Part shown: piece by piece, positions 22,456 to 63,614 of the stretch
Numbering within the stretch: the first letter of the stretch is position 1
Layout: every line of letters starts with the position of its first letter
Made by a program: the position numbers and the translations under genes
Source: Ianthella basta
Taxonomy: Eukaryota; Porifera; Demospongiae; Verongiida; Ianthellidae
NCBI GenBank assembly: GCA_964019415.1
Contig: OZ025880.1
Span: forward strand, 2,500,813-2,564,812
Length of the DNA stretch: 64,000 nt
Direction: 5' to 3'
Notes under the pieces: generated by a model
What the model saw: the letters and a program-made list of their open reading frames with translations, nothing else
Told to the model about the DNA's origin: nothing
Databases searched by the model: none

Positions 22456-22499
<44 letters not shown>

Positions 22500-22518
22500 T
22501 CACGTGTCTGGTGATAAT

Positions 22519-22559
<41 letters not shown>

Positions 22560-33276: not shown

Positions 33277-36340
<3,064 letters not shown>

Positions 36341-37879: not shown

Positions 37880-37959
37880 CCATATAATTATGCACACATT
37901 ATAGTGAGTTCAATCCTGCTGATGGCAAGCAGAAATTAAATTCTCCTGCATTGCATGCA

Positions 37960-38957: not shown

Positions 38958-41770
38958 AGTTATGTTTCTGTCTCTGTCTCAGTCCCTGTGTCATCATCCT
39001 CTGAGGTGGGCACTCCAGCACGCAGTTCTGTTATGAGAACAAGGTTTCCAAGTCTCTCTGCTGGTACTTTCAACAGTGGCTCAGCATTATCCTCCCTTTC
39101 TTCTTCCTGTTTCTGGCAGCATCTCAACTGCCTGCACTTCATGTACACCTTTCTTCCCAGTAGAATGCCCGGATACAGTAGGATTAGATAGATGAGGGTC
39201 ATCTGGATGGAAGCATAGAACTGTCTTTCCCCAAGTTATGTGAAGACTCAGGATGAGGATGATGGCTAGGTTACCAAGGATGGCTGAATCCCAAGCTTTG
39301 AGTACAGGTGAGTTGTAGGGCTGGCAGGTAGCAATGAGTAGCAGTAAGGCCACAGTGAGGCAGATCTGGATGCGTAGAGCATCTTCAGCTCTTGGTATGA
39401 ACACAGCCACAAGGAGGTGAACAATGCATGAATGAGGTAGAGGGAAGAGAAGCTTCTGAAGTGCTCCTTGTAGCAGCCTTGAAAGACATTGATAAAGTGG
39501 TAGACCCATCTGTCAGTGTAGACATTGCTGCAGAATGTCTGAATTCTCTGCAGCTTCCTCAATGGTGGCACAGCTATGAGGAGTCTACCAAACAGCTGAG
39601 GCCCAGTGGGAAGAGTGAGGAGAAGAAAGGACGGCAAAAGGACAAACACTAACAGTATGACAATGGCTGGTATGAAGTATGCAATGTGTTGTATGGAGCC
39701 ATAGGGCACAGAGCCCTGCCCCCACACCACCACCTTCCTCTCCCCATCTTCCCCTGTGATGGTCTGATGGACAAGGATGTAAGTGCAGCTGACTAGAAAA
39801 CGAGTGAATCCAAGAATGACAAAGGCAGGAAGTGATCTGTCATAATATATGCCACCACTCTGTCATATGACATGCCATCTGAGTACTTTGCCTTCCATCG
39901 TCGCATTCTCCTGAGACATTGGTCCACTCGGTGACAGCATATCCACTTCTCTGCTGACCTCTTCAGAACAATGAGTGTGATGGCCACTGTCAGTGGGAAC
40001 AGTCCAATGGAGCAGTGAAGAAGGAGTGTCTGAAGCAGGGTGAGGTTGGCATTTGGTGCAAGGCAGTATGGTGGGAGGAGCACTCCAAAGAAGTCCAGGT
40101 TCCACATGCCATACAGAAATCGGTATATCCTGACAAATACATTGTGCACTGGTCCCAATTCAGCATCACCTCTGATAGTGGAAAAGGCCAGGAGTTGTGC
40201 AAACAACAGAAATGAGTTGAACCTTCCTGACACTAGATCTATGTTGAAGAGCATCAAGACAAACATGAAGGTGAACATGGGCACCCACTCACTCAGTATC
40301 CACACAAGAATACCCACTTTACTGAGCCCTTCCTCACGATTGGTGCACACAGGTCGGAACCCATTGAAGCTCATAGCAATGCCTTTTCCTTCAAGGCAGT
40401 CTCCACAGAGGAGTCCTTTGCGATTGGACCCAGTACATACTACTTCCTGGAGCTTTTGCTGTGAGTTGTTTTCTGGAAGGGTGATTGGCTGTGTTCGACA
40501 GTATCCTGGAGGACATGGTCCAGTGAAGAACTTCTGTCCATATCACAGCTGTGTTGGTCATTGGATGGCAGGTATCCAGCCCAGTGGTCTCTCTCCAAGA
40601 CAGCACCAATCACCTCAGGGTGACTCTCATTACATTCTGCTATCCCAATCACACTGTGCACTCCGGAGTAGGTCTGTGTTATCTAGTGACTGCAGAACTA
40701 GCTGAGAAGGTCTAACTACTGCAGATGTGTTGCTCGTGTTGCTGGGGAAGGAATGGTTGGCCATGTCATGTCGCTGTGGAATGCCATGGAGGATGACTGT
40801 AAAGTCATTAGTGTATTTGGAGAATGGATCCAGCTTTACTGGTAATGAGATATTGTTCTTGTTAATCAGTACAGAGAACACTAATCTGATGTTATTGCCA
40901 ATGTGAAACAAATCAAATGCATGAGTATAGGGTAGTCTTTCTGTTTGCCAAGTATGAAACTCATGGTCACTGGTTTGTTTAAGTCAACAGTGACAGCACT
41001 GACATGGTTGGGACCAGACACTGCCTCATGTTGCAGTGTTCTCCATAATAGTGATTCCTTATTAGGGAAGCATCTGGATCTCTTGTCTGTAAAAACTTCA
41101 AAGTGTATCCCACTGGCATGGTTGCCAAAATGGTCTACTCTAACATACTCCAGCAATACATCCCCATTTGTTATTGTGATGTCATATTTAATGAAGGAAA
41201 TTCCTCTGCCATAGGGGCCAATTATTGTAAGGAGAATGTATTGTATTATTACTTTCTTGCAGTCTTGAAAGTACAAGGTTGATAAATCTGAGAGAGAGTT
41301 ACTGTACTGCAGCTGTTCACCACAGTCTTGGAATGCTAAATTTTTAACTACAACTATCTGAATATTGTAAAATGCTAAGTTTGCTCTGTTGGTGCACTGA
41401 ATTTGTGATCTGACATTTTCACAAGTACCATTACTGCTATGGTTGCAACACTCATTAGTGGCGTTCCATTTAGCAAACTGCCAACTGGCTCAAGTACATG
41501 GATACCACAACCAATGACAATCGCAGAATTATTCCCAATGTGTGTAAGAGCATAGTTCAGTGACCCACATGATTCATTAAGGTGTCGTGGATGGGGTACT
41601 GGGTCACTTGTTGGTGTGTCATGTATACACTGTGGACTATCATCTCCTGTTGTACTAACCCACATGGTTCTTGTGTAGTCCTCAGAAGCTGCTCCAGTGC
41701 AGCATGTGAGCAGCCACAGCACACACACCAGTAGGCAGTGTTTGGCTAGCTGACTTCAAATTCATTGTGT
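38958..41770 (-). pseudogene. Beta-helix/TM family copy D, decayed
   Basis: Begins with the family N-terminus (LVCVLWLLTCCTGAASEDY, WVSTTGDDSPQC) and ends with the membrane part (GILVWILSEWVPMFTFMF) and tail (TSEDDDTGTETETET). Compared with copy C it lacks about 1.9 kb of beta-helix coding DNA; the join lies near 41045, between FEVFT and LLWRTLQHE coding. Several further frame changes are present, including one near the signal peptide, one near 41450 and some in the membrane region. It is unlikely to make a full protein. Confidence 0.9.
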
Positions 41771-43384: not shown

Positions 43385-43560
43385 GTGTGAATGACTGTTT
43401 CTGTCTCTGCTCCAATCATCATCTTGATCTGTGTTGGGTAATCATCTATTATTTGAACAAGGTTCCCAAGACTAGCTCTCAGGTAGGGCACTATTGGGTC
43501 ACTCATCATTCCTCTTTTTTCTGGCAGTAGCTACTGCTGGCACATGTACTTCACACACAC
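43385..43560 (-). pseudogene. Beta-helix/TM family, 3'-end relic G
   Basis: Short relic of the family tail: SLGNLVQIIDDYPTQ followed by GAETETV parallels RLGNLVLITELRAG and TETETET of the intact gene. The adjoining DNA TTTTTTCTGGCAGTAGCTAC parallels the family sequence just before the tail. It predates the block duplication because relic H is its twin. Confidence 0.65.
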
Positions 43561-43759
43561 ATATATATAGTGCTGCATATAGATGCACCCAGAGTAACTG
43601 TCTTTGGTGGGCTATGCATGTGTGTACAATTCCAATTTGGTGGACAGTGATGAATTTGAAGGACATTATACAATGAAATTAAGCAAAGAGCTTTGAGAAA
43701 GTTATGTAGATGATTACTGGCTACTTTCCTACAAGGTGAGGCTAACAGCAGAAATGTAA

Positions 43760-44037: not shown

Positions 44038-47000
44038 CTATGTTTCTGTCTCTGTCTCAGTCACTGTACACGTATCATCATCCTCCGAGGTGGGCACTCC
44101 AGCACGCAGTTCTGTTATTAGAACAAGGTTTCCAAGTCTCTCTGCTGGTGCTTCCAACAGTGGCTCAGCATATTCCTCCCTTTCTTCTTCCTGTTTCTGG
44201 CAGCATCTCAATTGCCTGCACTTCAGGTACACCTTATTTCCCAGTAGAATGCCAGGATACAGGAGGGGTAGGTAGATGAGGATCATCTGGATGGAAGCAT
44301 AGAGCTGTTTTCTCCCAATGGGTGAGTTGAGATCAGTTATGTGATGACTCAGGATGAGGATGAAGGCCAGGTTACCAAGGATGGCTGTATCCAAAGCGTT
44401 GAATTTGCGTGAGTTGTAGGGTTGCAAGGCGGCAATGAGTAGCAGCAAGGCCACAACAAGGAAGATCTGAATGCGGAGAGCATCTTCTGCTCTGGGTGTG
44501 AACACAGCCACAAGGAGGTGGACAATGCGATGAATGAGGTAGAGTGAAGAGAAGCTTCTGAAGCGCTCCTTGTAGCAGCCTTGAAAGACATTGATAAAGT
44601 GGTAGACCCATCTGTCAGTGTAGACATTGCTGCAGAATGTCTGAATTCTCTGCAGCTTCCTCAATGGTGGCACAGCTATGAGGAGTCTACCAAACAGCTG
44701 AGGCCCAATGGGAAGAGTGAGGAGAAGAAAGGAGGGCAGAAGGACAAACACTAGCAGTATGACAATGGCTGGTATGAAGTATGCAATGAGTTGTATGGAG
44801 CCATAGGGCACAGAGCCCTGCCACCACACCACCACCTTCCTCTCCCCATCCTCCCCTGTGATGGTCTGGTGGACAAGGATGTAGAAGGAGCTGACTAGAA
44901 AACGAGTGAATCCAAGAATGACAAAGGCAGGAAGTGCTCTGTCATATGACATGCCATCTGAGTACTTTGCCTTCCATCGTCGCATTCTCCTGAGGCATTG
45001 GTCCACTCGGTGACAGCATATCCACTTCTCTGCTGACCTCTCCAGAACAGTGAGTGTGATGGCCACTGTCAGTGGGAACAGTCCAATGGAGTAGTGAAGA
45101 AGGAGTGTCTGAAGCAGGGTGAGGTTGGCATTTGGTGCAAGGCAGTATGGTGGGAGGAGCACTCCAAAGAAGTCCAAGTTCCACATGCCATACAGAAATC
45201 GGTATATCCTGCCAAATGAATTGTGCACTGATCCCAACTCAGCATCACCTCTGATAGTGGAGAAGGCCAGGAGTTGTGCAAACAGCAGAAATGAGTTGAA
45301 CCTTCCTGACACTAGATCTATGTTGAAGAGCATCAAGACAAACATGAAGGCGAACATGGGCACCCACTAACTCAGGATCCACATGAGAATGCCCACTTTA
45401 CTGAGCCCTTCCTCACAACTGACACAGACTGGTCTTATTCCATTAAAGTTCACTGCAGTTCCTTTTCCTTCCAGGCAGTCACCACAGAGAAGCCCTTTAC
45501 GATTATTATATTTGCTACAGACTATTTCTTGAAGCTGTTCCTGGGAATTGTTCTGAGGAAGTGTAATTTGCTGTGTTTGACAATGTCCTGGAGGGCATTG
45601 TCCAGTGAAGAACTTCTGTCCATCACAGCTGTGTTGGTCATTGGATGGCAGGTATCCAGCCCAGTGGTCTCTCTTCAAGACAGCGCCAATCTTCTCAGGG
45701 TGACTCTCTTTACAGTCTGCTATCCCAACCACACTGAGCACCCCACAGTGACAAGTTCCCATACGTCCTGGGCCATATCGGAAGACATAGCCAGGAGGAC
45801 AGCACTGAAGCTCTATGTTCATCACCAGGAGTAGGTCTGTGTTGTCCACTGACTGCAGAACCAGCTGAGGAGGTCTAACTACTGCAGATGTGTTGCCTGT
45901 GTTGCTAGGGAAGGAATGGTTGGCCATGCCATGCTGCTGTGGAATGCCATGGAGGATGACTGTAAAGTCAGCAGTGAATTTGGAGAAAGGATTCGGCTGC
46001 ACTGGAATTGAATCTTCCTTCTTGTTAACCACTACTGTGAATACTGTATTGATGATGTTACCAAGCTCATCATATGCATGAGTATAGGGTAGTCTCTTCT
46101 GTATGCCAGGTATGAAGCACATTGTCAGGGGGTTGCTGAAGTCAGCTATAGCTCTGTGATTAATATTCACATAGTTTGATCCAGCAACTACCTCATTTTG
46201 CAATGCTCTCCATGGCTTACTGTCATTGGTTACCTCATCATAAAGAAAAATCAATTTTAAATGAATTATGTCAAATAGACTGAACATAAGCCATTCAGGG
46301 TCTGGTTCGAAAGTCCTGGTGGTATTCCTTGCTGTGCTCCCAGATAAGCAATTTCGAATGTCTTTTATGTAAACTGACTGTCCTTCAGACATGGCTGAGT
46401 TTTTATAGAAGATGAATGCACCTCTGTTCTCTTCCCAGTCTTGGTCAAGCTGGAGGAAACAGTTTGACACTGGTACCAGTCCAGGTGCAGAGCTTGCATA
46501 AATGGCACCTCCTCTCTGAAAGGCATGATTTGCATTAAAGATTAATGCTACATTTTTGCCAACTCTGATGTAACTCTCTCCATTTAGAGAAAATGCCCCA
46601 CCATGTGTGGCAACACAGAGTGTGAACCCACCCCATGTATTTGACTGGAATATAATTTCTGAATCTAGTGCATAAATTCCCTGTGTAGAAGCTCCACATT
46701 GCATGTTTAGATTCCCAGCCATTATCTGTACTGACTTTGCTAAGATTAGGCTAGTGTTGGTGTTTGCTTGAAAAGAAGGCCTGACATTTTGTGTCAATTC
46801 GTTCTGTATATCTTTCATGTGGACTTTGTTCAAAGTGATGTCATTTTCACTCTGATCCATATACAATGGAAACAATGTCATCAGAAATTGAGTAGTCAAA
46901 TGTGCTTCAGTGTTTGTCATTATGACACCTCTGAACAACCTCTTCCCATGAGTAGGAAGTGACTGGAAGGCACATGCACTTCCACTTGCTGCTGTGTTAT

Positions 47001-48906
47001 GAAATAGTGTTACATTGTCCACAATCACCCTGTCTCCACTGTCGCCTTGATAAGCTGAATGCTTGTAAAGCATAGATATGCCCCCACCAATTCCTTGCTC
47101 TGCTGAATTAAAGAAAACAGCACACTCTGTAAAATTGACAATATTATTTGTCACAGATGTAGCACTGACAGTGGAGAACTCCACATGTACAGCTCCACCC
47201 ATTCTGTCATGTTTCTCTGATGGGAGAAGGGTATTTCTTGCAAAATAGTCTCTGAATAATTCTACCTTGTTTGCTTTAGTTGCATTCTGAATATGAATAA
47301 ACATGCCTCCACCACAGTGAGCTGTATTGTCAATAAGGTCTGTCCTTGTGATGTGAATGGTGTTATTGTCTGAGGAATCCTGCAGGATGAGGTAGACCCC
47401 ACCACCAAGTTCTGCAGAACCGTCGAAGATATAAGTGTCCACTACTTTGACTGTATTCTGACTGGCAAAGTCCTTGCAGACAAGAGCAATGCCACCACCC
47501 ATAATGGCATGAGTGTATTCAAACAGACTGTCTCTGATTTCCACTGAATTCTCCATAGCATGTTCACTGAATTCAATATACCCCCCAGCACCCCAACGTG
47601 CCCTACAGAACTGCGATTCTAAGTCCATTGCTTGTATGTCATTTCTCCTTGCCCATCCCGTGACTCTTACTTGTAGTCCTCTCTCCATGTTAGATGCCTG
47701 TAATCGTATTCCCTGAAGCAGAATCACATTTTCATCTGATCGATTTGAAATTTCAATGGTGAGTGCATTCCCTGTGAGTGAACTTACAATAACTGACACA
47801 ATTTGAATGCGATTTCTCGCTGAGTTGCCTCTGACTTCTACCTTGACACTGGAATGTGTACATGTAGTGGAGTTGTTTGCAGCAGTCTTGGTATTCTTTG
47901 ACCAGTCTGTATTGAATGTGGCACCAGTGTTGTGATGTAGCTCTGGTTTCTCTGAGACAACAGAGTCTACCACTGATACATTATAACCATGTACTCTGTC
48001 AAGTAGGGCTATGGAGATGCCACCAGTAATACACCTGGTGTTTCCTTTGAGGACAACATTGGTGAGATTAATCACGCCACCCTCTCCATCTCCAATCACA
48101 GTAATGTTGATGCCTATGAATGCTGCAAGGTTATAAATCGAGTGGATATTGTCATTCTCAACATATATATTATTCAGTTGAAGCTTCTCATGATCATTTG
48201 TCACAGAACTTTCTTTTGTGCTACCAGTAAGAACTTCAAAGTGTATCCCACTGCCATGGAAACCAAAGTGGTATATTACAACAGAATCCAACGACGCCTC
48301 CCCATGTGTGATTGAGGTGTCATACCTGATGAATGAAATACCTCTTCCATAGGGCCCAGTTATATTAATGTAAATGTTTTGAATCAGTACTGTATTGCAG
48401 TCTTGGAAGTACAGGGTTGAGGAGCGTGCGAGAGACTCATAGTGCTGCAGCTGTTCGCCACAGTCCTGAAATGCTACGAAATCAATTCCAACAAACTGCA
48501 CATTGTAAAATGCCAGGTTTGCTCCATCACAGCACTGAATTTGTGGGACACCGTTATCACAAACACCCATTACCCCTATACCTGCAACATTCAACAGTGG
48601 TGTACCATCTGGTAAGCTGTCAACTGGCTTAAGTACGTGGATGCCACAACCAATGACAATTAATGTCTCATTCTGAACGTGTGTAAGAGCATAGTTCAGT
48701 GACGCACATGATTCATTGAGGTGGCGTGGATGGGGTATTGCATCACTTGCTGGTGCATCAAGAATGCACTGTGGACTATCCTCTCCTGTTGTACTAACCC
48801 ATATGGTTCGGTCAGTCTCAGAAGCTGCTCCAGTGCAGCATTCAGGTAGTAAAAGTATACACACCAGCAGGCTGTATTTGAACAGAATTGGTTGCATCAC
48901 TTTCAT
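44038..48906 (-). pseudogene. Beta-helix/TM family copy B, one in-frame stop
   Basis: Intronless. Codons 1-1179 (48906-45370) encode signal peptide, beta-helix ectodomain with GGGI/GGGV/GGGM turns and the Cys-rich neck, then TAG at 45369-45367. The frame continues unbroken for another 440 codons (45363-44038) through all membrane helices to TETETET. In gene A the same codon is GAG (Glu), in WILSEWVPMF. No other break is seen over 4.9 kb. The membrane half is almost identical to A while the ectodomain is clearly diverged. Options: a recent nonsense allele, stop read-through, a secreted ectodomain plus a separately translated anchor, or a sequencing/assembly error. Confidence 0.85.
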
Positions 48907-50039
48907 GTATATGCCTTTGCTGTAAGTTGACCTGTTGGATGGGAATAAATTGTCATGAAGTGTTATACTAAATCAATGGTGTACAGTACCTCTGGAATGC
49001 AAAATAGGTTAGGGGTAATATTCTGTCAACAGAACAGGCAAATTGTATTATCCAATTTCAAATTCATCAAGTTAGATGCTGAAAAATGGTGATTATGGGA
49101 AAAAGTAATCTGTTATTGTTTGGAAGTATTCACAGTTACAGGCTTACTGCATGCAGCAACAGACAAACACAGCCTACATAATGGAATAATGCTAGCTTAC
49201 TATATACCAACTTACAGATTATTGTTGTGACAATCACAATTCCTTTCACGGGAGCTCTTGGACAAAGAAGAGAATCACACTGAAAAGAGTGACAAAATTG
49301 CTTTGTCTGATTTTATATTGGCAGCTGCAAAAGGGCCATATATAATATCTGTAGGGTCTGCTTCAGTTGTGCGGCACTCTACCTGCAGCACTGTGCTTTT
49401 ATGGTGCTTGTTACAAGCATTGATTATGAAATAGATACATTATTAAATTATGTTTGTTTTCACTCTAGTGTTTTTGCACACACAACAGCTGCATATATAG
49501 TGAGAGTACCAGCTGTTGACTCCTCATTGTTATTCAATACTTAGTACCCATGGGATACATAAATTGCTTGTTACCATATCTATAGCTACGAAATGGATAA
49601 TACACCAAATCACCCAAGTATGCACACTGAGCTACTGTCATGTGTACAGTGCGGCTGGGGACTGGGGACCAGTCATGCGTAAGTAAGATAGATGTGGCAA
49701 AAAGGAAGCATGCATGCATGCAGTCTTATTTATTGGTCTGCTTCAGAGTGTCATCACGATGCATCTGTCATGATGGCTGAATTCTATATCTCGTAATGGA
49801 AGCACTTGCAGCTCCACCTAAGTATAGGTAAATCTCTTCTTGACTGCTGAGTGAGCCACATTAAAGGTGAATGCAGCTGCTCAAAATTTCTGTTCCATGC
49901 AGACCATGCTGGGAGCACTCTTAAGTGCCAATACAGTCACCACTAATACATGCATATATACCAGACCTGCAGCTTATCCAGTGATATTATCATCTCACAT
50001 CATGATCAGCCTGTCATCACGTGCATTGGAGGCATTGGT
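48907..50039. other. Intergenic upstream of copy B
   Basis: AT-rich DNA with no supported gene. It should contain the copy B promoter; no clear core motif was identified. Confidence 0.4.
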
Positions 50040-50480
50040 CGGAATATGTGTGTGTGATTCCATATGCAGCTGCAGGCTTGCAGTTGTTATCACGTCTTTC
50101 TCAGCTGTAACTTCTTTGTTTCATCATAATGTGTGCATGCAAGAACGTGACTGCCATTGTCAAGCATGTTCCACATAAAGAAAAGCTTTGATTGCATTGC
50201 TTGCCTGTTTGTTGCAGCTGCATGGCCCAGGATGTGCACTGCATAGCTACATACTATGCCAAGGTTCCATGCAGTGGTGGCCTTGGCAATGGTGACAGTA
50301 GCTGCAACTCAGCAGAAATTAATGGCTCAACATGTAGTGAAACTGTATAGTTCATGAATACTCTATTCACACATGATGTATATGAAAGACACATACACAA
50401 TCATCCATTGTTATTATTAACAAAGAAAGGTCTCAGTATTGAATGTGAACCCTAGTGCATCCATTGTGCTGTAATTGAGT
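50040..50480. repeat. Long dispersed repeat, second copy
   Basis: Partner of 37960-38440. Its last 200 bases also form the left arm of the inverted repeat at 50275-50885. Confidence 0.8.
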
Positions 50481-50885
50481 GATTAGGTGCGGGCTTGTTT
50501 GTCATGATCACTGCTGTGATTGCCTGCCCTATTGTATTGCTAGGATTCAACCGGGTTCTATTCATTAATTCTATACTGAACAGTGGAGCCATTGTGCGTA
50601 GGCAATTCTTGAACCGGTTCACACCTGATGGTCAACAGGACAGATTAATTGTATTAGTGCATGCCCATTGACTTATTGTCATACCCTGAATGAGATAGCA
50701 CAATGCACTAGGGTTCACATTCAGTACAGAGACCTTTCTTTGTGCACACTAATGATGGATGATTGTGTACGTGTCTTTCAAATACATCATGTGTGAATAG
50801 AGCATTCATGGACTGCAGTTTCACTGCATGTTGACACATTTAATTCAGTAGAATTGTAATTATTGCCACTGTTGGGAACATGATG
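50275..50885. repeat. Large imperfect inverted repeat, arms about 200 bases
   Basis: Left arm 50275-50480 and right arm 50680-50885 are reverse complements: CACACATGATGTATATGAAA is mirrored by TTTCAAATACATCATGTGTG, and GAACCCTAGTGCA by TGCACTAGGGTTC. The spacer, about 200 bases, holds no gene. Confidence 0.75.
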
Positions 50886-51378: not shown

Positions 51379-52143
51379 CTAGCAGGAAAGCCCGCCTTTG
51401 GCGGGCTTCCCTGCTCCGGCGCCTCCACAACAGCTGCTGCATGGTAGCTACTCCATGACAGTGTGGCTTATGATTGTGTGGGTATATACTGTGGGCACAT
51501 CAAGTAAATTGGAAGCTTATGTATGCTCAGGGGAACACCATGTCTTAAGATGGTTTTGGACAGGTCATGCATGTTACTGTTCCAGGTCAAAGTGTGATGA
51601 AAAGTCACTGATTGGGCTACTATATCCCACTTTGGCCTAGAACAGTACCATGCATGTACTGTCCAAAACCATCAAGACATGTTGCTCACCTGAGTGTACT
51701 TAAGCTCCAATACTTGATGTGCCCACACAGCTATACAACGGTGAATAGAAGGTGCAAAATGTTGCCTACAGATTGTTAGCTATCATTGACTTGATGCAAA
51801 AGCAGCAACATGCTCACAGAAGGAAGAGGTCTATGATGTTGCTGGATTGTAGACTCATATTGTAGCTGATGTATATCAGAATGGTGCCATAGATGGTGTT
51901 GGCTGCAGCTCTGTTGCTTCACAGAAGGAAGAGGTTTACCATGTTGCCGCATGGCGTCTTTTTCCGTAACGGATGGAAAACGTGCGACGCTCTTCGCAGG
52001 CGCGGCGAATCATCTTCCGTCTACCCCCTTATAGCCATGACCATGCGGCGCTCTGTCATAATCCTGAGTTTCACGTCGATCGCGCGCAAACTGCGTGAGG
52101 AATTTGCGAACAGAGGATTTGAGCTCTACCAAAATATATAGAG
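51379..52143 (-). mobile_element. Helitron-like non-autonomous candidate
   Basis: Read on the minus strand, the 3' end has a strong hairpin (AAGCCCGCC / GGCGGGCTT within GCAGG...CCTGC) immediately followed by CTAG and then T, as at Helitron termini. The other end starts TCTCTATATATTTTGG, but the base before it is not the expected A. The interior includes a CpG-rich 52,000 segment, two copies of CAGAAGGAAGAGGT, and the long inverted repeat at 51480-51730. No Rep/helicase coding. Confidence 0.4.
51480..51730. repeat. Long hairpin, arms about 115 bases
   Basis: GTGGGCACATCAAGTA at 51491 is mirrored by TACTTGATGTGCCCAC near 51711-51727, and ATGGTTTTGGACAGG by CTGTCCAAAACCAT. The loop is under 10 bases, so an RNA from it would fold into a long stem. 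Confidence 0.8.
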
Positions 52144-52257
52144 AGCTTATAAGTTCTACTGTATCACATTGCATGTACTTCTTCTTTTGTTCCATGTATG
52201 TATACATATACCTTGTTCTTGGTGCCTATATAAAATGTAGCCTGTGAGGTTAAATGG

Positions 52258-54985
52258 GTTTAAGTCAACAGTGACAGCACTGACATGGTTGGGACCAGAC
52301 ACTTACTCATGTTGCAGTGTTCTCCATAATATATTTCCTTCGTTTGACATTACTTCAGGATGATATAGGAATGCAAAGTTAAAATGAAACATTAATACTA
52401 AACCAAGGCTAACCAGATTTATATGGGGTGCTAAAGTAGCAGTGATGTTCTTTAGTGTGCTCCTAGAAAAGCAGTTTTGTAAATCAGATGCATCAACTGA
52501 CTGGCCTTCATTCTTGGCAGTGTTGTCCCTGAACATGAGTGCACCGTGGTTCTCTTCCATTTCTTGGTCATACTGGAGGAAACAGTTTGATACTGGTACC
52601 ACTCCAGGCTCGGAGCTAGTGTATATGGCACCTCCTCTCTGAAAGGCATGGTTTGCAAATAAGGTTATATTTACACCTTTGTAACTGTGATGTGGCTCTC
52701 TCCATACAGAGCAATAGCACCACCGTGTGTAGCAACACAGTAGGCAAACAAAGCCGAAGTATTTGCCTTTAGAAAAATCTCTGAATCTAGTGCATAAATT
52801 CCCTGTGATCTTGCTCCACAAAAATGGCTAGTATGCCTGTTGTCAATGTTATCTGTACTGATTTCCCAAAAATTAAGTTTGTGTTGCTTTTCACCTGAAA
52901 AGTGGGGTTGATGGTTTGTAATAGTTGCTTGCGTAGAAATGCAGTTGCCTGATTGATTGAATCAGTGAACATCTTGACAGGGTCCACAGTATAAAGCTTT
53001 GATATTGCTTCCTTCAAGTTGTTTGGATATTCTGCCAAAAGTGCAACAGTGTTTATAATTCTAACACCTCTGAACAACCACTTCCCATGAGTAGGAAGTG
53101 ACTGAAAGGCACATGCACTTCCACTTGCTGCAATGTTGTGAAAAATTGTTACAGTATTCAAAACTACACCAACTCCAATGTTGCCTTGGTAACGGGAGTG
53201 TCTGTAGAGTACGGATATACCTCCACCAACTCCTCGTTCAGTTCTGTTGAAGATAATCTGAAATCTTGTGAAACTGACAAAGTTGTCTGTCCTGAAGGTG
53301 GCACTGACAATTGAGAGCTCCACATGAACACCTCCACCCATTAAGTCGTGTCTCTCTGATGGGAGAAGGGTATTGTGAAAAAAGTAACAATCCAGTAATT
53401 CTACCCTAGGCTGTTTGCTACTGATGAATCTTGAATCTGAATAAACATGCCTCCTCCACAAAGTGCTATGTTGTTGCTAAGGTTTATCTGTGTGAGATGA
53501 ATAGAGTTATTGGTTGAGGAATTCTGAAAGACAAAATACACCCCACCACCCTGTTTGGCAGAACCGTTAAAGACTCGAATGTCAAGTGCTTTGAAAATGT
53601 TCTGAGTAGCAAAGTCCATGTACGCAACTGCAGTGCCTCCACCTCTGAGGGCATGATTAAGAGTAAAGTCATGAGAGAGGCCATTGTTACCAGATCTCAT
53701 TACTACTAAATTCCCCATGGCATGTTCACTGAATTCAATGTACCCCCAGCTCCACAGAGCTAGGGCTCTATGGAACCATGATACTATACCAGTCACATGT
53801 ATTTCATTCCTCTTTGTCCGTCCTGTAACTGTTACTTGTAGTCCTCTCCTGGATACTTCTGAGCTGTTTGATCCCAACAAGTGTACTTTCTGAAGCAGGA
53901 TGACATTTTCCTGTGACTTATCTGTAACTTCAATGGAAAATGCGCTGCCTGGAACTACTCTGCACTTGCTCACATAGACATTTCCAAATTGTATGTAGTT
54001 ACCCGTGGTATTTCCTCTGAGTTCAATCTTGATGCTGGAATACGTAGTGGAGTCATTTGCAGGACTCTTGGTTATATTAGCGGAGCCTCGTAGCAATACC
54101 TTGTAACCAAGCACTGCATCATGTAGAGCAATTGAGATGCCACTACCTCTGGTTGCTGCATTGACAATGACATTGGAAAGAGTAATCTCACCACCCTCTC
54201 CGTCTCCCCTCACAGTAATGTTGATGCCTGTGAATGATGTGGTATATGTCCACTAGTTGATATTTCTCATGATTCCTTATTAGGGAAGCATCTGGATCTC
54301 TTGTCTGGCCTGTAAAAACTTCAAAGTGTATCCCACTGGCATGGTTGCCAAAATGGTCTACTCTAACATACTCCAGCAAAACATCCCCATTTGTTATTGT
54401 GATGCCATATTTAATGAAGGAAATTCCTCTGCCATAGGGGCCAATTATTGTAAGGAGAATGTATTGTATTATTACTTTCTTGCAGTCTTGAAAGTACAGG
54501 GTTGAAAGATCCAAGAGAGAATCACTGTACTGCAGCTGTTCACCACAATCTTGGAATGCTACATTTTTAACTACAACTATCTGAATATTGTAAAATGCTA
54601 AGTTTGCTCTGTTGGTGCACTGAATTTGTGATCCGCCATTTTCACAAGTACCCATTACTGCTATGGTTGCAACACTCATTAGTGGCATTCCATTTAGCAA
54701 ACTGTCAACTGGCTCAAGTACATGGATGCCACAACCAATGACAATTGCATAATTTTTCCCAATGTGTGTAAGAGCGTAGTTCGGCGACCCACATGATTCA
54801 TTAAGGTGCTGTGGATGATGTACTGGGTCACTTGTTGGTGTGTCATGTATACACTGTGGACTATCCTCTCCTGTTGTACTAACCCACATGGTTCTTGTGT
54901 AGTCCTCAGAAACTGCTCCAGTGCAGCATGTGAGCAGCCACAGCACACACACCAGTAGGATGTGTTTGACTAGAACTGACTTCAT
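52258..54985 (-). pseudogene. Beta-helix/TM family copy C, 3'-truncated
   Basis: Contains the start (MKSVLVKHILLVCVLWLL), the N-terminal domain and most of the beta-helix (GGGTAVAYMD, QGGGVYFVF, CGGGMFIQ, QRGGAIYTS) but stops near the codons for the strand before the neck. Neck, membrane helices and tail are absent. At least three frame changes split the rest. Very close to copy D where both survive. An upstream in-frame Met exists near 55066, but the family start corresponds to 54985. Confidence 0.9.
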
Positions 54986-54989
54986 TGTG

Positions 54990-56619
54990 TTGATGACTTC
55001 CTTTATAGGCTTGTAAGGTATGGTTGCGTAACCTATATGAAACCAACATCCTATATATATGTACATATGTGTAGATGAGGCATTGATCAGGAATGAACAA
55101 GGAAAGTGATAGAAGGTTCAAATATATTGAGAACAAGCATTTGATGAAGGGTGACTGTTGTACAGTTGACAGCTATGCACATGGTGTCATACAGAAATTC
55201 AAGAGGCAGAATAACTCATGCAAGGTTTATGCAGGGTCTATAATTATATATCGATAGAGAACTGTGAAGAATGATTAAGAGAAAGAATATACCATGCACT
55301 TTGCCCCAAAACTCACAGATGATATGTGACAGCTTCCCAATGTCTTGGCTGGCCTGGGTGTGTGGCAGCTAGTTATTCTGTCTGAATTGTTCAATGTGTA
55401 GATTCGACAGTCCCACCGTATTGCTGTTGAAGAATCTGACAATGCTGGGTGTATAACACCAACTTACATAGTGCACTCTGTTTCCACAGCTTGTCGAGGT
55501 TCTATCTAGGATACAATATAGGGGGAAGGTTTAGAGCACAAAAGTAGAAAGATGGTCTGGGATCCTGCCTCCCAGAAAAATTTTGGATTGAGAGTCTTTG
55601 AATTTGATTCTAATGCATTCTGGGAAGAAAATCACATTACTGCCATTTTCACTGGAATTGGCCAATTGTTCCTTCAATCAATGTTGTGTGTAATACTGGA
55701 TTGTGTCCATCTCTTAACCTATGACTGTAATTTTAGGAGTCCAACACTGAAACTGTTAAAAATAATAGATTTATTCATAATGAATGATCTGCACCGTGGT
55801 CAATCACACGTGATATATGCATATGGCTATAATGGAGTCACAAGTACACATGATCATCCATTGTTAGTTTATACAATATAAACCCTCTAATTGTTTATTG
55901 TCAATGCGAATATTCCGTGAATGACAATTTGATGAATTGAATCTGTTATATGTGGCATTTGTGTACTGCACTGTCTATTATTATGTTTTGGGAATCATTT
56001 AGCCACTTTCATATTGTGCTTATGTATTCTGGTCATGTGGCTCCATTTACGCATGTATACTGGATGGTTAATGGCTGAAGATATGACTGTAGGGAGCGTT
56101 AAGATGATTTCAGTGCATGATCAGTGAAGTGCTAGGTATCAGTCATGCATTCCTCATAGTTTCAAACAGTATGTACATTATTACATTAACCATTGGCAGA
56201 CACAACAATTAAAGATTGACTATCTTCTTCTGATGTACATACTTAATATATCTATAACCTATTGTATAACAATGGCCAATACAGATCGTATATGTGTATA
56301 TATGTGTGTACTTGAAGAGGCTTCATTGTGTTGGTGCATGCTTTCCATTGTAGACCTGCTGGTAAAGAAGCCTTAGGGCATCATGGCTTATGCCAGGAGT
56401 GCATGCATAGCATGACATCAAGCATATAATTATACTGGCGGTAGAAGAGAATAAATGAGAATAATTATATGTATTAATTACAGTATATGACAACTGCATA
56501 GGGTACAGCTAGTGTACGGTAAAATGTAATGCTCAAACTACATAGAGAAGTGATGTTGTAGTACTAAACAATGAGAAACACTGAACAAAAATTGTAAGCA
56601 AGACATTAATTGTACAATT
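54990..56619. repeat. Duplicated non-coding block (matches 41771-43384)
   Basis: Upstream flank of copy C, collinear with that of copy D, including the region around ACTGGAATTGGCCAATTGTT. No supported gene. Confidence 0.85.
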
Positions 56620-56795
56620 GTGAATAACTGTTTCTGTCTCTGTTCCAATCATCATCTTGATCTGTGTTGGGTAATCATCTATTATTTGAACAAGGTTCCC
56701 AAGACTAGCTCTCAGGTAGGGCACTATTGGGTCACTCATCATTCCTCTTTTTTCTGGCAGTAGCTACTGCTGGCACATGTACTTCACACACACAT
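56620..56795 (-). pseudogene. Beta-helix/TM family, 3'-end relic H
   Basis: Twin of relic G (SLGNLVQIIDDYPTQ, then GTETETV), differing by a few bases. Its presence in both blocks dates the relic to before the duplication. Confidence 0.65.
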
Positions 56796-57136
56796 ATATA
56801 TAGTGCTGCGTATATATGCACCCAGAGTAACTGTCTTTGGTGGGCTATGCATGTGTGTACGATTCCAATTTGGCGGACAGTGATGAATTTGAAGGACATT
56901 ATACAATAAAATTAAGCAAAGAGCTTTGAGAAAGTTATGTAGATGATTACTGGCTACTTTCCTACAAGGTGAGGCTAATGGCAGAAATGTAATTCTGGTG
57001 TCTTATGCATACTTTCATATGTTTTTGTTTGAATGCTTATAAACAGGTATATAGTACAAAGCTTTGCTGCACCAATCTGTGCTGAATTGCACGTTATATA
57101 ATGTACGAAGTGTAACCAAAGTGTAATACACTGCTC

Positions 57137-57388
57137 TTCTTTTCTCTGCTCATGTGAAGTTTGACGTTGAGCTACTGAGGCACATGGAAGGGTTGCTTCA
57201 AGACATACGTACAGTATACATACTCCAGTCTGTGTCCTGCAACGGAGTGGAAAGGGAGGCCATGCAAGGAGAGGCTGACACAAAGAAAGTGGAGGAAGGT
57301 GACCCCAACAGTGACGTGAGAAGGATAGCAAGCATTAATTTAATTATTATAGCTACTCGCAGAAAGCTAAGCATGAAGTTTTCTTAAT
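57137..57388 (+). pseudogene. Copy of the last exon of the TPR gene
   Basis: VELLRHMEGLLQD and VEEGDPNSD match [13 protein letters not shown] and VEEGDPNGD of the exon at 30348-30572. It has diverged, with an insertion near 57209 (ACAGTATACATACTCCAG) and a different C-terminus. No upstream TPR exons are found nearby, so this is an orphan exon carried with the flank of a beta-helix gene. Confidence 0.85.
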
Positions 57389-57535
57389 TGTAAATAAGTA
57401 ACTGATTGATATGATGATAAATCTAACACATGGGAATGTGAGTTAATGCATCTACAAATTACATTAAGGTATTGTACATTGCATTGAGTAGCATGTAGTG
57501 TGTATGATGACTCATAAATACACACTTAACTGCTC

Positions 57536-57539
<4 letters not shown>

Positions 57540-57596
<57 letters not shown>
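57540..57596. repeat. (GT)n microsatellite
   Basis: About 28 GT units, the only long dinucleotide tract between 37 and 64 kb. Confidence 0.97.
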
Positions 57597-57598
<2 letters not shown>

Positions 57599-57706
57599 AC
57601 ATGACTGAATATTTGCCTTACAAATGGCTAAACATTATCAATATCTATACTTGTTCTAACTGTCTATTTGCACTTAATTGCTATTCTATGTTATAATTTT
57701 GGGTAG

Positions 57707-57958
57707 GACAGACAACGTTTAGAACTACACATGGTGAGGAAAGAAAGGGGGAAGGGAAAAATGGCAGTGAACTGTACCAGCACTGGCAACCTCCTGATCT
57801 TTAGCCGACCCTTTAGCAGCCGGGTCACTGGTCACCGCCAACAGCCACTGATCCATTCCCTCCTCATATACTGATGGGGCTTCTTTGGAGCAGGCTTGAA
57901 CAAGCTTCCCCCCTTCCCCCTTCTTTCCTTACCATGTGTAGTTCCGAACGTTGTCTTT
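57707..57958. mobile_element. About 252-bp MITE with 48-base inverted ends
   Basis: Left arm ACAACGTTTAGAACTACACA, right arm in reverse complement ACAACGTTCGGAACTACACA, each continuing into a GGAAAGAAAGGGGGAAGGG-type purine tract. No coding capacity. TTTGGGTAGGA occurs just outside on the left (57698) and again at about 58000 on the right. Confidence 0.75.
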
Positions 57959-58431
57959 CATTCGTGTCACCATGGTACCTAGACCATCTTAATTAACTTT
58001 GGGTAGGATAGCTTCACAATTTACATTCACCTAGCTTCCTGTTGTTGTATTGTGTCAGCATGAATATACATAATTGCACAACACTGTATACTATGGTATA
58101 CAATATATGTCGTATGAATTATGATAAGCCCAAATTTTGAAGCCATAGAAAGGGCTGCATACATGGTTAAGGCAGTGAGAGCTTAGTAAAGTTGACTCAT
58201 TGTCAGTTGATTTGATAGACTATTTGTAGCAGAATGCAAAGATTTCTTCAAATCGGTTCATATAGACAAAAGCTTCGTTTGCCGGTTTTCGGCCATGTTC
58301 AGGAGTAGTGCGACTTTTCGTTTGTATTACAGCATACAAACAACCACTGCCATCCCTACATAGACAGCACTACTGTGCTGTCTGATAACCAGTTCATATT
58401 TATTACTGAAAATGTGAAGCATGTACAGTGT

Positions 58432-58703
58432 GAATATATGTATGTATTGCTACATTATTGGCTTCAGTCACAGTATCAGTAATATTATTATAATAGAACA
58501 TTCACAGTATATGTGTGATGCTGAAGTGCTAATGCAAACAAAATCATTGAGAGAGTTTGAAATCAGTAATGATGTGCATAATATAAAATGTAGGGAATAG
58601 TATGCAAAGAAAAGAATATAGCATTAATGGTGCGATTCTATGTACTGGATCATGTGTACATTGTTGACATATTACGTACAATTTGATTTTATTATTAAGC
58701 TAG
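58432..58703. repeat. 3' flank of intact gene A (matches 43760-44037)
   Basis: Immediately downstream of the gene A stop in transcript sense; probably its 3' untranslated region. Confidence 0.8.
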
Positions 58704-61700
58704 CTAAGTTTCTGTTTCTGTCTCAGTCACTGTGTCATCATCCTCTGAGGTGGGCACTCCAGCACGCAGTTCTGTTATTAGAACAAGGTTTCCAAGTCTC
58801 TCTGCTGGTGCTTCCAACAGTGGCTCAGCATATTCCTCCCTTTCTTCTTCCTGTTTCTGGCAACAGCTCAACTGCCTGCACTTCAGGTACACCTTATTTC
58901 CCAGTAGAATGCCAGGATACAGGAGGGGTAGGTAGATGAGGATCATCTGGATGGAAGCAAAGAACTGTTTTGTCCCAATGGGTGTGTTGAGATCAGTTAT
59001 GTGTAGACTCAGGATGAGGATGAGGGCAAGGTTACCAAGGATGGCTGTATCCAAAGCGTTGAATTTGCGTGAGTTGTAGGGTTGCAAGGCGGCAATGAGT
59101 AGCAGCAAGGCCACAACAAGGAAGATCTGGATACGGAGAGCATCTTCTGCTCTGGGCGTGAACACAGCTACAAGGAGGTGGACAATGCGATGAATAAGGT
59201 AGAGTGAGGAGAAGCTTCTGAAGCGCTCCTTATAGCAGCCTTGAAAGACATTGACAAAGTGGTAGACCCATCTGTCAGTGTAGACATTGCTGCAGAATGT
59301 CTGAATCCTCTGCAGCTTCCTCAATGGTGGCACAGCTATGAGGAATCTACCAAACAGCTGAGGTCCAATGGGAAGAGTGAGGAGAACAAAGGATGGCAGA
59401 AGGACGAACACTAACAGTATGACAATGGCTGGTATGAAGTATGCAATGTGTTGTATGGAGCCATAGGGCACAGAGCCCTGCCACCACACCACCACCTTCC
59501 TCTCCCCATCCTCCCCTGTTATGGTCTGATGGACAAGGATGTAGAAGGAGCTGACCAGAAAGCGAGTGAATCCAAGAATGACAAAGGCAGGAAGTGCTCT
59601 GTCATATGACATGCCATCTGAGTACTTTGCCTTCCATCGTCGCATTCTCCTGAGACATTGGTCCACTCGGTGACAGCATATCCACTTCTCTGCTGACCTC
59701 TCCAGAACAGTGAGTGTGATGGCCACTGTCAGTGGGAACAGTCCAATGGAGTAGTGAAGAAGGAGTGTCTGTAGCAGGGTGAGGTTGGCATTTGGTGCAA
59801 GGCAGTATGGTGGGAGGAGTACTCCAAAGAAGTCCAGGTTCCACATGCCATACAGAAATCGGTATATCCTGACAAATGTATTGTGCACTGGTCCCAATTC
59901 AGCATCACCTCTGATAGTGGAAAAGGCCAGGAGTTGTGCAAACAGCAGAAATGAGTTGAACCGTCCTGACACTAGATCTATGTTGAAGAGCATCAAGACA
60001 AACATGAAGGCGAACATGGGCACCCACTCACTCAGGATCCACACAAGAATGCCCACTTTACTGAGCCCTTCCTCACAATTGACACAGACTGGTCTTATTC
60101 CATTAAAGTTCACTGCAGTTCCTTTTCCTTCCAGGCAGTCACCACAGAGAAGCCCTTTACGATTATTATATTTGCTACAGACTATTTCTTGAAGCTGTTC
60201 CTGGGAATTGTTCTGAGGAAGTGTAATTTGCTGTGTTTGACAATGTCCTGGAGGGCATTGTCCAGTGAAGAACTTCTGTCCATCACAGCTGTGTTGGTCA
60301 TTGGATAGCAGGTATCCAGCCCAGTGGTCTCTCTTCAAGACAGCGCCAATCACCTCAGGGTGACTCTCATTACAGTCTGCTATCCCAGTCACACTGAGCA
60401 CCCCACAGTGACATGTTCCCATATGTCCTGGGCCATATCGGAAGACATAGCCAGGAGGACAGCACTGGAGCTCTATGTTCATCACCAGGAGTAGGTCTGT
60501 GTTGTCCACTGACTGCAGAACCAGCTGCGGAGGTCTACCTACAGCAGATGTGTTGCTTGTGTTGCTAGGGAAGGAATGGTTGGCCATGCCATGTCGCTGT
60601 GGAATGCCATGGAGGATGACTGTAAAGTCAGCAGTGTACTTGGAGAAAGGATCTGGCTCAAAGTGTAATGTGTCATCCATCTTGTTAATCAGTACAGAGA
60701 ATATTGAACTGATGTTATGGCCAAAAACATCCTTTGCACGAGTATAGGGAAGTCTTTTCTGTTTGCCAGGGATGAAGTGCATGGTAAGTGGTTTCCTCAG
60801 GCCATTTATGGCACTATACATAGCAACATAGTTGGGACCTGAAACTATCTCTCTTTGGACTGCTCTCAGTCTCCAGTCCCTGCTAGATAACTGTGATTGA
60901 GAAATGTTCAATGATGGAGTATGCCCACCAGATGTAACATAACAGAATGTAAAGTTGACTTGCCCCTCAAATGATTGCAAGCTAGTAATATGAGCACAAT
61001 TTGCTGCATTTGCGGTAATATTCCCCAGTGTGCTTCCAGTGATGCAGTTTCGAACATCTGATACATAGAATGACTGACCGTCACCTTTGGCAGTGTTGTT
61101 AATGAAAAGGAATGTGACTGTACTGTTTTTCTCTTCCCACTCTTGGTCATACTGGAGAAAACAGTCTGACACTGGTATTGCACCAGGTGCAGAATTAACA
61201 TAAAGTGCACCTCCTCTTTGAAAGGCATAATTTGCAAGGAACTCTAATCTGGTATTTTTGCCAACTCTGATGTAGCTCTCTCCATGGAGAGCAATAGCAC
61301 CACCATGTGTGGCAACACAGAACATTGACACTACAGATGAATTTGTCTGGAGCACAATTTCTGAGTCTAACGCATAAATTCCCTGTGAAGATGCGGCACA
61401 ATTGATGGTTACTCTTTCTGTTGTTATTTGCACTGACTTTGCATAGATTAAATTTTTGTTGGTATCAACCTGAAGAGAAGGGATGATTTTATTAGACACG
61501 TGCTTTAGAAAACACATAAAGGAGTAATAGACTACTTCAAGAAATCGATAACAATTTGATAACATTTTCTGCAGTTGCTTGTATTTTGTCCAAACTCCTG
61601 AACTAACAAACATTACAGTTACATCTGTTAGTCGAATGCCTGTGAACAACCTCTTCCCATGAGTATTAAGTGACTGGAAGGCACATGCACTTCCACTTGC

Positions 61701-63614
61701 TGCCTCGCTGTATTCTATTTTGGCCGTATTCACAATCACTCTATCCCCACTGTTCCCTTGGTGACGTGGGTGTCTGTAGAACACTGATATTCCTCCACCA
61801 ACTCCTTGCCCAGCTGAGTTAAACGAAAGATCACACATTGCAAAATTGACAGTGTTATCAGTTCTGAAGGTGGCATTGACAGTGGAGAACTCTACTTGAG
61901 CACCTCCCCCCATCATGTCATATTGTTCTGATGGCACTAGAGAATTGTGCTCCACTCTACCCAATATGTTTACTGCATTTGCTGTTGCAGTATCAATAAA
62001 CTGAACAAACATGCCTCCTCCGCAATGTGCTTTGTTGTAGCCGAGATAAAGCATTGTGAAATTGAAGGTATTATTACATGAGGAATCCTGAAGGCCGAGA
62101 TAGAATCCACCACCCACTTCTGCAACATTGTGCTCTGCCTTCATTCCAAGTAGCTCGAGTGTATTCTGAGTAGCAAAGTCCATACATGCTACAGCAATAC
62201 CTCCACCCCTATGGGCACGATTATAAGCCAAAAGGCTGTCAAATGCGAAATTTACTGAACTCCCCTTGGCATGTCCACTGAATTCAACATACCCTCCAGC
62301 TCCCCAGTATGCACTGTGGTACAGAGATGTGATACGAGTCACTAGTATTACGTTTCTCCTTGCCCATCCTGTGATGAGAACTTGTAGTCCTCTGCTGTGT
62401 ACCTTTGTGCTACTTACTCCCATCAATTGCAAATCCTGAAGCAGGATGACATTTGCCTCTGAGTGATCTGTAACTTTGATGGAGAGTGCACTGCCTGGAG
62501 CTAGTCGGCACTTCATCACATTAACATATCCCATTTGTATCTGATTTCCAGTGGAATTGCCTCCAAGTTCAATCTTGATGTTGGAGTGCATAGTGGAGTT
62601 GTTTGCATCGCTCTTGATAACATTCGACAAATGATTGTGGCCCCCGCATTGTTCCACAACCATAATGGATATGAATGATACACTGTGACTGCGAAATGCA
62701 TCATGCAGAGCCAGTGAGATGCCATTACTTCTGGTTGACCTATCAACTGTGATATATATATATGAGACTGCAATCTCAGTGTCCTCCATGTCTCCCATCA
62801 CAGTGATGTTAATGGCTGTGAATGATGTGGTAAGGTTGTAATGAAATTCTGGCTGGATATTGATGTGGTTAATGTCTATATGCCTCAGTTTAATTGTCTC
62901 CCTTGCCATTGAAGCAACTCCTGTGCTACCTGTAAGAACTTCAAAGTGTACCCCACTACCGTGGATGGCAGAATGGTATATTCTCACACTCTCCATTAAT
63001 ACATCGCCACGTATAATTGTAGTATGATGTCTGATAAAGGAAATACCTGTTCCATAGGGGCCAACTATATCTATGACAAGATATTGTATCACCATTTCCT
63101 TGCAATTGTAAAAGTACAGGGTTGATGAATCTGAGATGGAATCACTGTACTGTAGCTGTTTTCCACAGCCATAAAATGCCAAGTGTTTAATAACAATTTT
63201 CTCAGCATTGTAAAATTCCAAGTTTGCTCCATTAGTGCACTGAATTGTTGGTACATCAATTTCACAATTGCCCTTTATTACTATGGCTGTAACATTCATC
63301 AGAGACATCCCATTTAAAATACTATCAAGGGGCTCAAGTCCATGGAAACCACAACCAATGAAAATCAATGTATCATTCCCAATGTGTGTAAGAGCATAGT
63401 TCAGTGACCCACATGATTCATTAAGGTGTTGTGGAGAGGGTACTGGGTCACTTGTTGGTGTGTCATGTATACACTGTGGACTATCCTCTCCTCTTGTACT
63501 AACCCATATGATTCTTCTGTAGTCCTCAGAAGCTGCTCCAGTGCAGCATGTGAGCAGCCACAGCACACACACCAGTAGGCTGTGTTTGGCTAGAGCTGGT
63601 TTCAGTTTGCTCAT
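58704..63614 (-). CDS. Beta-helix (Pmp-like), Cys-neck, multi-pass membrane protein A
   Basis: Single 1636-codon frame without introns. Signal peptide (LLVCVLWLLTCCTGAAS, about 12-28); IIWVSTRGEDSPQC and LNESCGSLNYALTH start the extracellular part. A right-handed beta-helix with Pmp-type turns follows: GGGIAVA (about 467), GGGFYLG (501), CGGGMFV (532), GGGISVF (606) and NYAFQRGGALYV (800). A Cys-rich neck has CCPPGYVF (about 1053), GLLCGDC (1156) and VCVNCEEG (1177). About eight membrane helices follow from 1197 to about 1570, then a charged tail RLGNLVLITELRAG and acidic TVTETETET. Many NxS/T sites fit a glycosylated cell-surface protein. No enzymatic motif is seen. Function unknown; a receptor, adhesion or channel-like role is possible but unproven. 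Confidence 0.9.
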   Translation of the reverse strand: MSKLKPALAKHSLLVCVLWLLTCCTGAASEDYRRIIWVSTRGEDSPQCIHDTPTSDPVPSPQHLNESCGSLNYALTHIGNDTLIFIGCGFHGLEPLDSILNGMSLMNVTAIVIKGNCEIDVPTIQCTNGANLEFYNAEKIVIKHLAFYGCGKQLQYSDSISDSSTLYFYNCKEMVIQYLVIDIVGPYGTGISFIRHHTTIIRGDVLMESVRIYHSAIHGSGVHFEVLTGSTGVASMARETIKLRHIDINHINIQPEFHYNLTTSFTAINITVMGDMEDTEIAVSYIYITVDRSTRSNGISLALHDAFRSHSVSFISIMVVEQCGGHNHLSNVIKSDANNSTMHSNIKIELGGNSTGNQIQMGYVNVMKCRLAPGSALSIKVTDHSEANVILLQDLQLMGVSSTKVHSRGLQVLITGWARRNVILVTRITSLYHSAYWGAGGYVEFSGHAKGSSVNFAFDSLLAYNRAHRGGGIAVACMDFATQNTLELLGMKAEHNVAEVGGGFYLGLQDSSCNNTFNFTMLYLGYNKAHCGGGMFVQFIDTATANAVNILGRVEHNSLVPSEQYDMMGGGAQVEFSTVNATFRTDNTVNFAMCDLSFNSAGQGVGGGISVFYRHPRHQGNSGDRVIVNTAKIEYSEAASGSACAFQSLNTHGKRLFTGIRLTDVTVMFVSSGVWTKYKQLQKMLSNCYRFLEVVYYSFMCFLKHVSNKIIPSLQVDTNKNLIYAKSVQITTERVTINCAASSQGIYALDSEIVLQTNSSVVSMFCVATHGGAIALHGESYIRVGKNTRLEFLANYAFQRGGALYVNSAPGAIPVSDCFLQYDQEWEEKNSTVTFLFINNTAKGDGQSFYVSDVRNCITGSTLGNITANAANCAHITSLQSFEGQVNFTFCYVTSGGHTPSLNISQSQLSSRDWRLRAVQREIVSGPNYVAMYSAINGLRKPLTMHFIPGKQKRLPYTRAKDVFGHNISSIFSVLINKMDDTLHFEPDPFSKYTADFTVILHGIPQRHGMANHSFPSNTSNTSAVGRPPQLVLQSVDNTDLLLVMNIELQCCPPGYVFRYGPGHMGTCHCGVLSVTGIADCNESHPEVIGAVLKRDHWAGYLLSNDQHSCDGQKFFTGQCPPGHCQTQQITLPQNNSQEQLQEIVCSKYNNRKGLLCGDCLEGKGTAVNFNGIRPVCVNCEEGLSKVGILVWILSEWVPMFAFMFVLMLFNIDLVSGRFNSFLLFAQLLAFSTIRGDAELGPVHNTFVRIYRFLYGMWNLDFFGVLLPPYCLAPNANLTLLQTLLLHYSIGLFPLTVAITLTVLERSAEKWICCHRVDQCLRRMRRWKAKYSDGMSYDRALPAFVILGFTRFLVSSFYILVHQTITGEDGERKVVVWWQGSVPYGSIQHIAYFIPAIVILLVFVLLPSFVLLTLPIGPQLFGRFLIAVPPLRKLQRIQTFCSNVYTDRWVYHFVNVFQGCYKERFRSFSSLYLIHRIVHLLVAVFTPRAEDALRIQIFLVVALLLLIAALQPYNSRKFNALDTAILGNLALILILSLHITDLNTPIGTKQFFASIQMILIYLPLLYPGILLGNKVYLKCRQLSCCQKQEEEREEYAEPLLEAPAERLGNLVLITELRAGVPTSEDDDTVTETETET

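Follow-up and report, generated by a model that had tools for sequence, protein, structure and literature searches.

The window, meaning the whole 64,000-nucleotide stretch of DNA analysed here, corresponds to positions 2500813-2564812 of contig C13 in a genome of 209 Mb and 96 contigs. Traces of one gene family had been predicted from the letters of the window at 31.6-63.6 kb, with pseudogenes nearby. Both are confirmed: the traces resolve into copies A, B, C and D, fragment E and two weak remnants, with C, D and E decayed and B carrying one stop. The features are as follows, in coordinates of the window.

58704-63614, minus strand: copy A, an intact single-exon gene of 1636 amino acids (genome position C13:2559519-2564426)
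60660-63527, minus strand: ectodomain of A, amino acids 30-985, a predicted right-handed beta-helix (AF2 model and beta-helix structural matches)
60075-60464, minus strand: Cys-rich neck of A, about amino acids 1051-1180, with CCPPG ... GLLCGDC ... C..C in its sequence and invariant Cys residues
58896-60056, minus strand: membrane region of A, amino acids 1187-1573, with eight hydrophobic segments by threshold (hydropathy)
58707-60647, minus strand: homogenised anchor module of A, about amino acids 990-1636 (neck, membrane segments and tail), marked by a drop in dS at about amino acid 993 and seen family-wide
44038-48906, minus strand: copy B (locus L007), full length with one in-frame stop
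45364-45366, minus strand: premature stop codon of B
44041-45975, minus strand: anchor module of B, near-identical to that of A
52279-54994, minus strand: copy D, an ectodomain-only pseudogene equivalent to amino acids 1-931 of A, with frame changes
39002-41749, minus strand: copy C, a pseudogene that has lost the ectodomain from about amino acid 290 to 917, with frame changes and stops
31606-32026, minus strand: fragment E, an anchor tail directly next to a copy of a palindromic repeat (32025-32150)
43395-43473, minus strand: short, weak tail remnant
56628-56706, minus strand: short, weak tail remnant, partner of that at 43.4 kb
41052-46210, no strand: block running from the 5' part of C through intergenic DNA to the anchor of B, 93-95% identical to 54270-60867
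54270-60867, no strand: partner block with the 5' part of D, the intergenic region and the anchor of A, including an unmatched stretch at 57005-58430

Copy A encodes a signal-like segment, a beta-helix of about 950 residues, a Cys-rich neck, about eight hydrophobic segments and a tail. The two weak tail remnants sit in the two copies of the one duplicated block. Rfam and tRNA searches gave no match.

Several repeats lie around these genes. Inverted repeats that are palindromic and MITE-like, 200-460 bases in length, occur at 5502-5698, 29573-30032, 37558-37879 and 51490-51727. A 95% copy of part of the palindrome at 37558-37879 occupies 32025-32150 and starts where fragment E stops (32026), as if the element marked the break of this fragment. 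A 440-base repeat (37947-38387 and 50022-50460, 90.6% identity) flanks the C/B genes on both sides and has an inverted partial copy at 50667-50856. Long CA/TG dinucleotide tracts are found at 35890-36110, 22165-22556 and 17102-17267, one of them 221 bases long at 100%, and before 38 kb, 10 of the 14 ORFs of at least 150 amino acids overlap a tandem array.

The AF2 model of amino acids 29-1000 of A (pLDDT 84.8) predicts a right-handed parallel beta-helix (pectin-lyase-like) fold for the ectodomain, and polysaccharide lyases, glycoside hydrolases and surface adhesins are among its best structural neighbours. The anchor is modelled poorly (pLDDT 53.2), with its C-terminal hydrophobic segments drawn as helices at low confidence; a receptor-like membrane fold of the anchor is thus putative, which counts against the interpretation given below. 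Assignment of the anchor to the animal GPCRs (7TM) would be tentative. A structure search with this poor anchor model found no match above chance level and a sequence search of the PDB none at E<=1; the anchor also went unmatched when viral and genome contigs were scanned at the DNA level.

Among the matches listed for A there is no Pfam family, neither PF13229 (Beta_helix), which does not rise above its gathering cut-off, nor PF02415, and no autotransporter family. A does pass TIGR01376 (POMP/PMP repeats; 17.2 bits, cut-off 15), with no single stretch significant alone. The passenger of chlamydial Pmp proteins is a beta-helix, and A resembles these proteins in its GGA(I/L)-type turns; unlike them, it has a Cys-rich neck, about eight hydrophobic segments and an acidic tail, and is encoded in what is most likely an animal genome. 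Membership of A in the Pmp family is rejected because no C-terminal autotransporter beta-barrel was found and about eight hydrophobic segments stand in its place. In the titles and abstract openings of open-licence PMC papers, no description of a beta-helix built onto a multi-pass anchor was found among the matches listed.

Two protein searches yielded 209 and 208 matches, with no name on any among the best 120 of each. A profile of 14 anchors gave 114 matches and reached farther, to relatives at 43-47% (P0158, P0161-P0165) and at 24-29% identity (P0173, P0174, P0176, P0177, P0179-P0183), with E values of 1.1e-78 for P0173 and 4.5e-18 for P0183. PF13229 (Beta_helix) is present in the distant relatives P0173 and P0177. 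P0180-P0183 measure 564-639 amino acids, too short for an ectodomain of about 950 residues (P0181 being judged by length); P0180, P0183 and the NCBI entry P0182 have the neck and membrane motifs and no long ectodomain. The neck (GLLCGDC-like) and membrane motifs are common to the window's family and a superfamily of beta-helix/Cys-neck/multi-pass proteins, from which the window's subfamily stands apart as a tight array with an ectodomain of about 950 residues. Judged from sequence, the anchor is part of this wider, uncharacterised superfamily and seems to be an old module, joined to a beta-helix in some proteins but not in others. Similar proteins are presumably present in sponge and cnidarian genomes.

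Searches with A and its relatives locate the family at no fewer than 75 distinct places in the genome, in three subfamilies, or at least 69 when contig C86, whose matches have the same scores as C4 genes, is set aside. The window's subfamily, together with unassigned places, accounts for at least 34 (24 on C13, 9 on C15 and 1 on C21), one C13 place (2014868) being counted without a subfamily label. At least 30 belong to the second subfamily (21 on C4, 6 on C86, and 1 each on C6, C11 and C13) and at least 11 to the third, all on C12 and several of them partial. All these counts are lower bounds that lie apart from the window's C, D and E and include some partial places, above all on C12. Of 405 candidates in the search with A, 29 were scored, all of them matching; searches with relatives added the C4 and C12 clusters and further C15 genes. 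Internal stops are absent from 25 of the 29 loci found with A and present in four (L007, L016, L018 and L026). The family genes of C86 and of C4:10.88-10.95 Mb have identical scores and an equal internal spacing of about 52.9 kb, C86 being either an unplaced haplotype copy of the C4 region or a further duplication.

The near-identity of the neck, membrane helices and tail of A and B under a strongly diverged beta-helix, noted in the original prediction, holds when dS is followed in windows of codons. Between the two copies, dS falls from about 0.8 in the ectodomain to about 0.1 in the anchor within about 20 codons: 80-codon windows have values of 0.32-1.7 if they end before amino acid 994 and of 0-0.16 if they begin at amino acid 994 or later, and nucleotide identity rises from 0.72 to 0.97 around amino acid 993. 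Divergence along the codon alignment is not even and takes a step at about amino acid 993. The match between the two duplicated blocks consists of two pieces, at 95.4% and 93.3%. What sets the A/B pair apart is that its match carries on through intergenic DNA. From its sequence, the block appears to be either a long conversion tract or the product of recent segmental duplication; each of its two ends lies within a gene, and this is one way to place an old ectodomain on a new anchor.

The constant anchor extends beyond the window to the genome-wide family. In an alignment of 110 full-length proteins, members of the window's subfamily other than P0002, a near-identical form of A, are 46-64% identical to A at amino acids 30-700 and 82-94% identical at amino acids 1190-1636. 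The predicted combination of a constant anchor and a variable ectodomain is borne out across the 253 pairs formed by 23 copies on C13 alone (none from C15 or C21), with median dS of 0.66 in the ectodomain versus 0.19 in the anchor and median dN of 0.375 versus 0.043. Anchor dS is below ectodomain dS in 246 of these pairs and less than half of it in 228. Purifying selection as the sole cause of the likeness is rejected, since synonymous sites are homogenised too.

In the 14 recent C13 pairs (ectodomain dS <0.25), both parts are alike in dS, 13 of them having 0.14-0.19 in the ectodomain versus 0.13-0.19 in the anchor (for example, 0.147 and 0.153 in L006-L008), and in old C13 pairs anchor dS stays at about 0.15-0.2. 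Anchor divergence has therefore been reset, and does not reflect slower mutation. By group, the median anchor dS lies at 0.15-0.23 inside C13 and at 0.30-0.33 for C13 versus C15, with ectodomain dS much the same. In the 10 recent C15 pairs, anchor dS ranges from near equality to one third of ectodomain dS, and between subfamilies it is 0.65-0.67 versus 1.73-1.77 in the ectodomain, the latter near saturation. Given the C15 and between-subfamily values, part of the effect may stem from a lower synonymous rate in the anchor. A constantly lower mutation rate is disfavoured by the similar dS of both parts in the 14 recent C13 pairs, an argument that the 10 C15 pairs fit less well.

Ectodomain and anchor trees of 29 loci have 6 of 26 splits in common. 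A is paired with L002 by the ectodomain and with B by the anchor (support 1.0 each), and in AU tests each data set rejects the tree of the other (p 2e-59 and 1e-40). Thirds of the ectodomain share 12-14 of 26 splits and the anchor halves 6 of 26, compared with 3-6 for ectodomain versus anchor pieces. Similarity also drops at the gene ends: in 231 pairs drawn from 22 C13 loci, L018 not among them, the fraction matched is 0.90 over the final 150 bases of coding sequence and 0.56 over the 150 bases past the stop (shuffled 0.50), and it is 0.57 just upstream of the start (shuffled 0.46). Low dS, the behaviour of recent pairs, the incompatible trees and the loss of similarity at the stop lead us to conclude that the anchor is homogenised by gene conversion together with purifying selection. 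We have high confidence in the evolutionary pattern itself, a homogenised anchor under a diverging ectodomain.

The ectodomain is weakly constrained. Across 15 loci in four clades of recent origin, the ectodomain has an omega of 0.84 (0.76-0.92), or 0.82 in a further estimate, and the anchor one of 0.27 (0.23-0.32). When the core is defined from 47 relatives in other subfamilies and not from the tested genes, omega at core positions of the 15 loci is 0.58 (0.45-0.75) in strands and 0.55 in loops, and at non-core positions it is 0.78 (0.68-0.92) in loops and 1.17 (CI 0.98-1.40) in strands; strand non-core positions at amino acids 421-640, one of four stretches compared, have an omega of 1.46 (1.03-2.16). 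The 24 pairs with ectodomain dS <0.25 range from 0.52 to 0.95 in the ectodomain and from 0.19 to 0.34 in the anchor. Ectodomain omega is lower in the second subfamily (L031-L035), at about 0.48. A count of sites across the full tree, from which L018 and L026 had been removed, finds 13 positive versus 174 negative codons of 938. Positive selection over the entire ectodomain, with an omega below 1 and these codon counts, is not supported, and of the diversifying ectodomain first proposed it is the weak constraint that stands. We conclude that the scaffold is constrained and that the rate of evolution on its exposed strand faces appears to be roughly neutral or a little higher; faster evolution on exposed strand residues is suggestive only.

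A and its alternative form P0002 are 99% identical and differ at 13 positions, five in amino acids 1-950 and eight in amino acids 982-1636, a split that therefore speaks against ectodomain hyperpolymorphism at A. Eleven C13 genes (L003, L004, L006, L009, L010, L011, L012, L015, L017, L019 and L020) are matched, over ectodomain and anchor alike, by 100% identical ENA proteins, which lie on different contigs from P0002. Partly on the basis of these identical genes, we infer that the proteins of the second haplotype come from one contig of the same species. This set comprises 26 listed family proteins, 24 of which were compared (two fragments of <400 amino acids were left out). Nine of the 24, P0002 (A) among them, have at least 97% ectodomain identity to one of the genome's own loci, three of these being 99.9-100% identical (L021, L022 and L027). 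For 13 others of the window's subfamily, the best ectodomain match among 35 own loci is 45-88%; the remainder are one second-subfamily protein and one fragment. Direct genome searches with P0020 and P0030 gave best whole-protein matches of 92% and 84%, and the remaining 11 of the 13 were compared with the 35 loci only, so that closer genes may lie elsewhere in the genome. In these sequences, the haplotypes seem to differ in gene content. At A, whose two forms are 99% alike, the excess of ectodomain change that an allorecognition determinant would be expected to have is not seen.

On balance, we favour the view that this family is a germline repertoire of surface receptor-like recognition proteins, clustered and apparently intronless, with an anchor homogenised by conversion; for the recognition role taken alone, the chances are about even. 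Each protein would present a secreted beta-helix ectodomain, borne by a Cys-rich neck and by a multi-pass anchor whose short tail is acidic. New genes would come from local duplication whose breakpoints may lie inside genes, and gene conversion and purifying selection would keep their anchors alike, allowing members to use one partner or signalling output. The ectodomain would mostly escape conversion and diverge, fastest on exposed strand faces, and the outcome would be a germline set of recognition surfaces on one output module. Such proteins would be located at the surface, bind ligands, share an output and act in recognising microbes or other cells.

The closest evolutionary parallel appears to be the NLR-B30.2 family of zebrafish, which is large and clustered; gene conversion is reported to affect its two domains differently, and the domain used for recognition to show high dN/dS and positive selection (PMC4852459). 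The window's family is comparable in that one domain is homogenised at synonymous sites and the other much less so. The zebrafish family differs in that its members are NACHT/B30.2 proteins and that positive selection is reported there but only suggested here, and no sequence kinship is claimed. Gene conversion can solve the conflict in families that need one output yet many ligands, and here the conversion pattern is found in genes that combine a multi-pass anchor with a beta-helix ectodomain. Should the host prove to be an early-branching animal, its array would be a concrete candidate for germline-encoded recognition of microbes or other individuals. This predicts haplotype-specific sets, exposed strand faces as the binding surface and a single common anchor partner.

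An expansion of adhesion, feeding or glycan-handling surface proteins, in which a polysaccharide-binding or -degrading beta-helix has a weakly constrained ectodomain, would account for the lyases, hydrolases and adhesins among the structural neighbours and for an ectodomain omega below 1. We consider it unlikely, because such neighbours are expected of any beta-helix and the difference between strand core (0.58) and strand non-core positions (1.17) is unlike uniform relaxation. It is quite unlikely that the array is an allorecognition locus, encoding self/non-self determinants whose haplotypes decide tissue fusion. The apparently haplotype-specific gene sets are in its favour (13 of 24 proteins at 45-88% ectodomain identity, P0020 and P0030 also by direct search), but A and its counterpart are 99% identical with no enrichment of ectodomain change, several other loci have 99-100% counterparts and the family is spread across several chromosomes. 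The pattern of recognition and allorecognition families seen in the original prediction accordingly fits as to recognition and, with no ectodomain excess at A, less well as to allorecognition. A polymorphic genetic basis of recognition is inferred in a sponge grafting study, the consulted portions of which point to aggregation factors and not to the window's family (PMC5450542). That anchor likeness arose with no gene conversion, from purifying selection alone or from recent segmental duplication with breakpoints inside genes, is very unlikely: the A/B block does extend through intergenic DNA at 93-95% and anchor omega is low, but homogenisation reaches synonymous sites, likeness across 22 C13 loci nearly stops at the stop codon, and the anchor halves have just 6 of 26 splits in common, which many tracts (or a weak signal) would produce.

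The favoured germline repertoire of recognition proteins could be taken further. We regard it as improbable, though conceivable, that the family represents a hitherto undescribed animal recognition system in which beta-helix ectodomains, and not Ig, LRR or lectin domains, are carried on one multi-pass anchor. It would be encoded by an intronless array with anchor identity enforced by conversion, and haplotypes with different receptor sets would make it a polymorphic locus for self/non-self or symbiont recognition.

Elsewhere in the genome, Wnt domains, which are not known outside animals, have 34 matches, versus matches in 0 of 14 control genomes, so that the host is most likely an animal. Contig C16 carries tandem runs of Wnt-domain matches at 1991483-2026924 and 174759-184125, more than expected.
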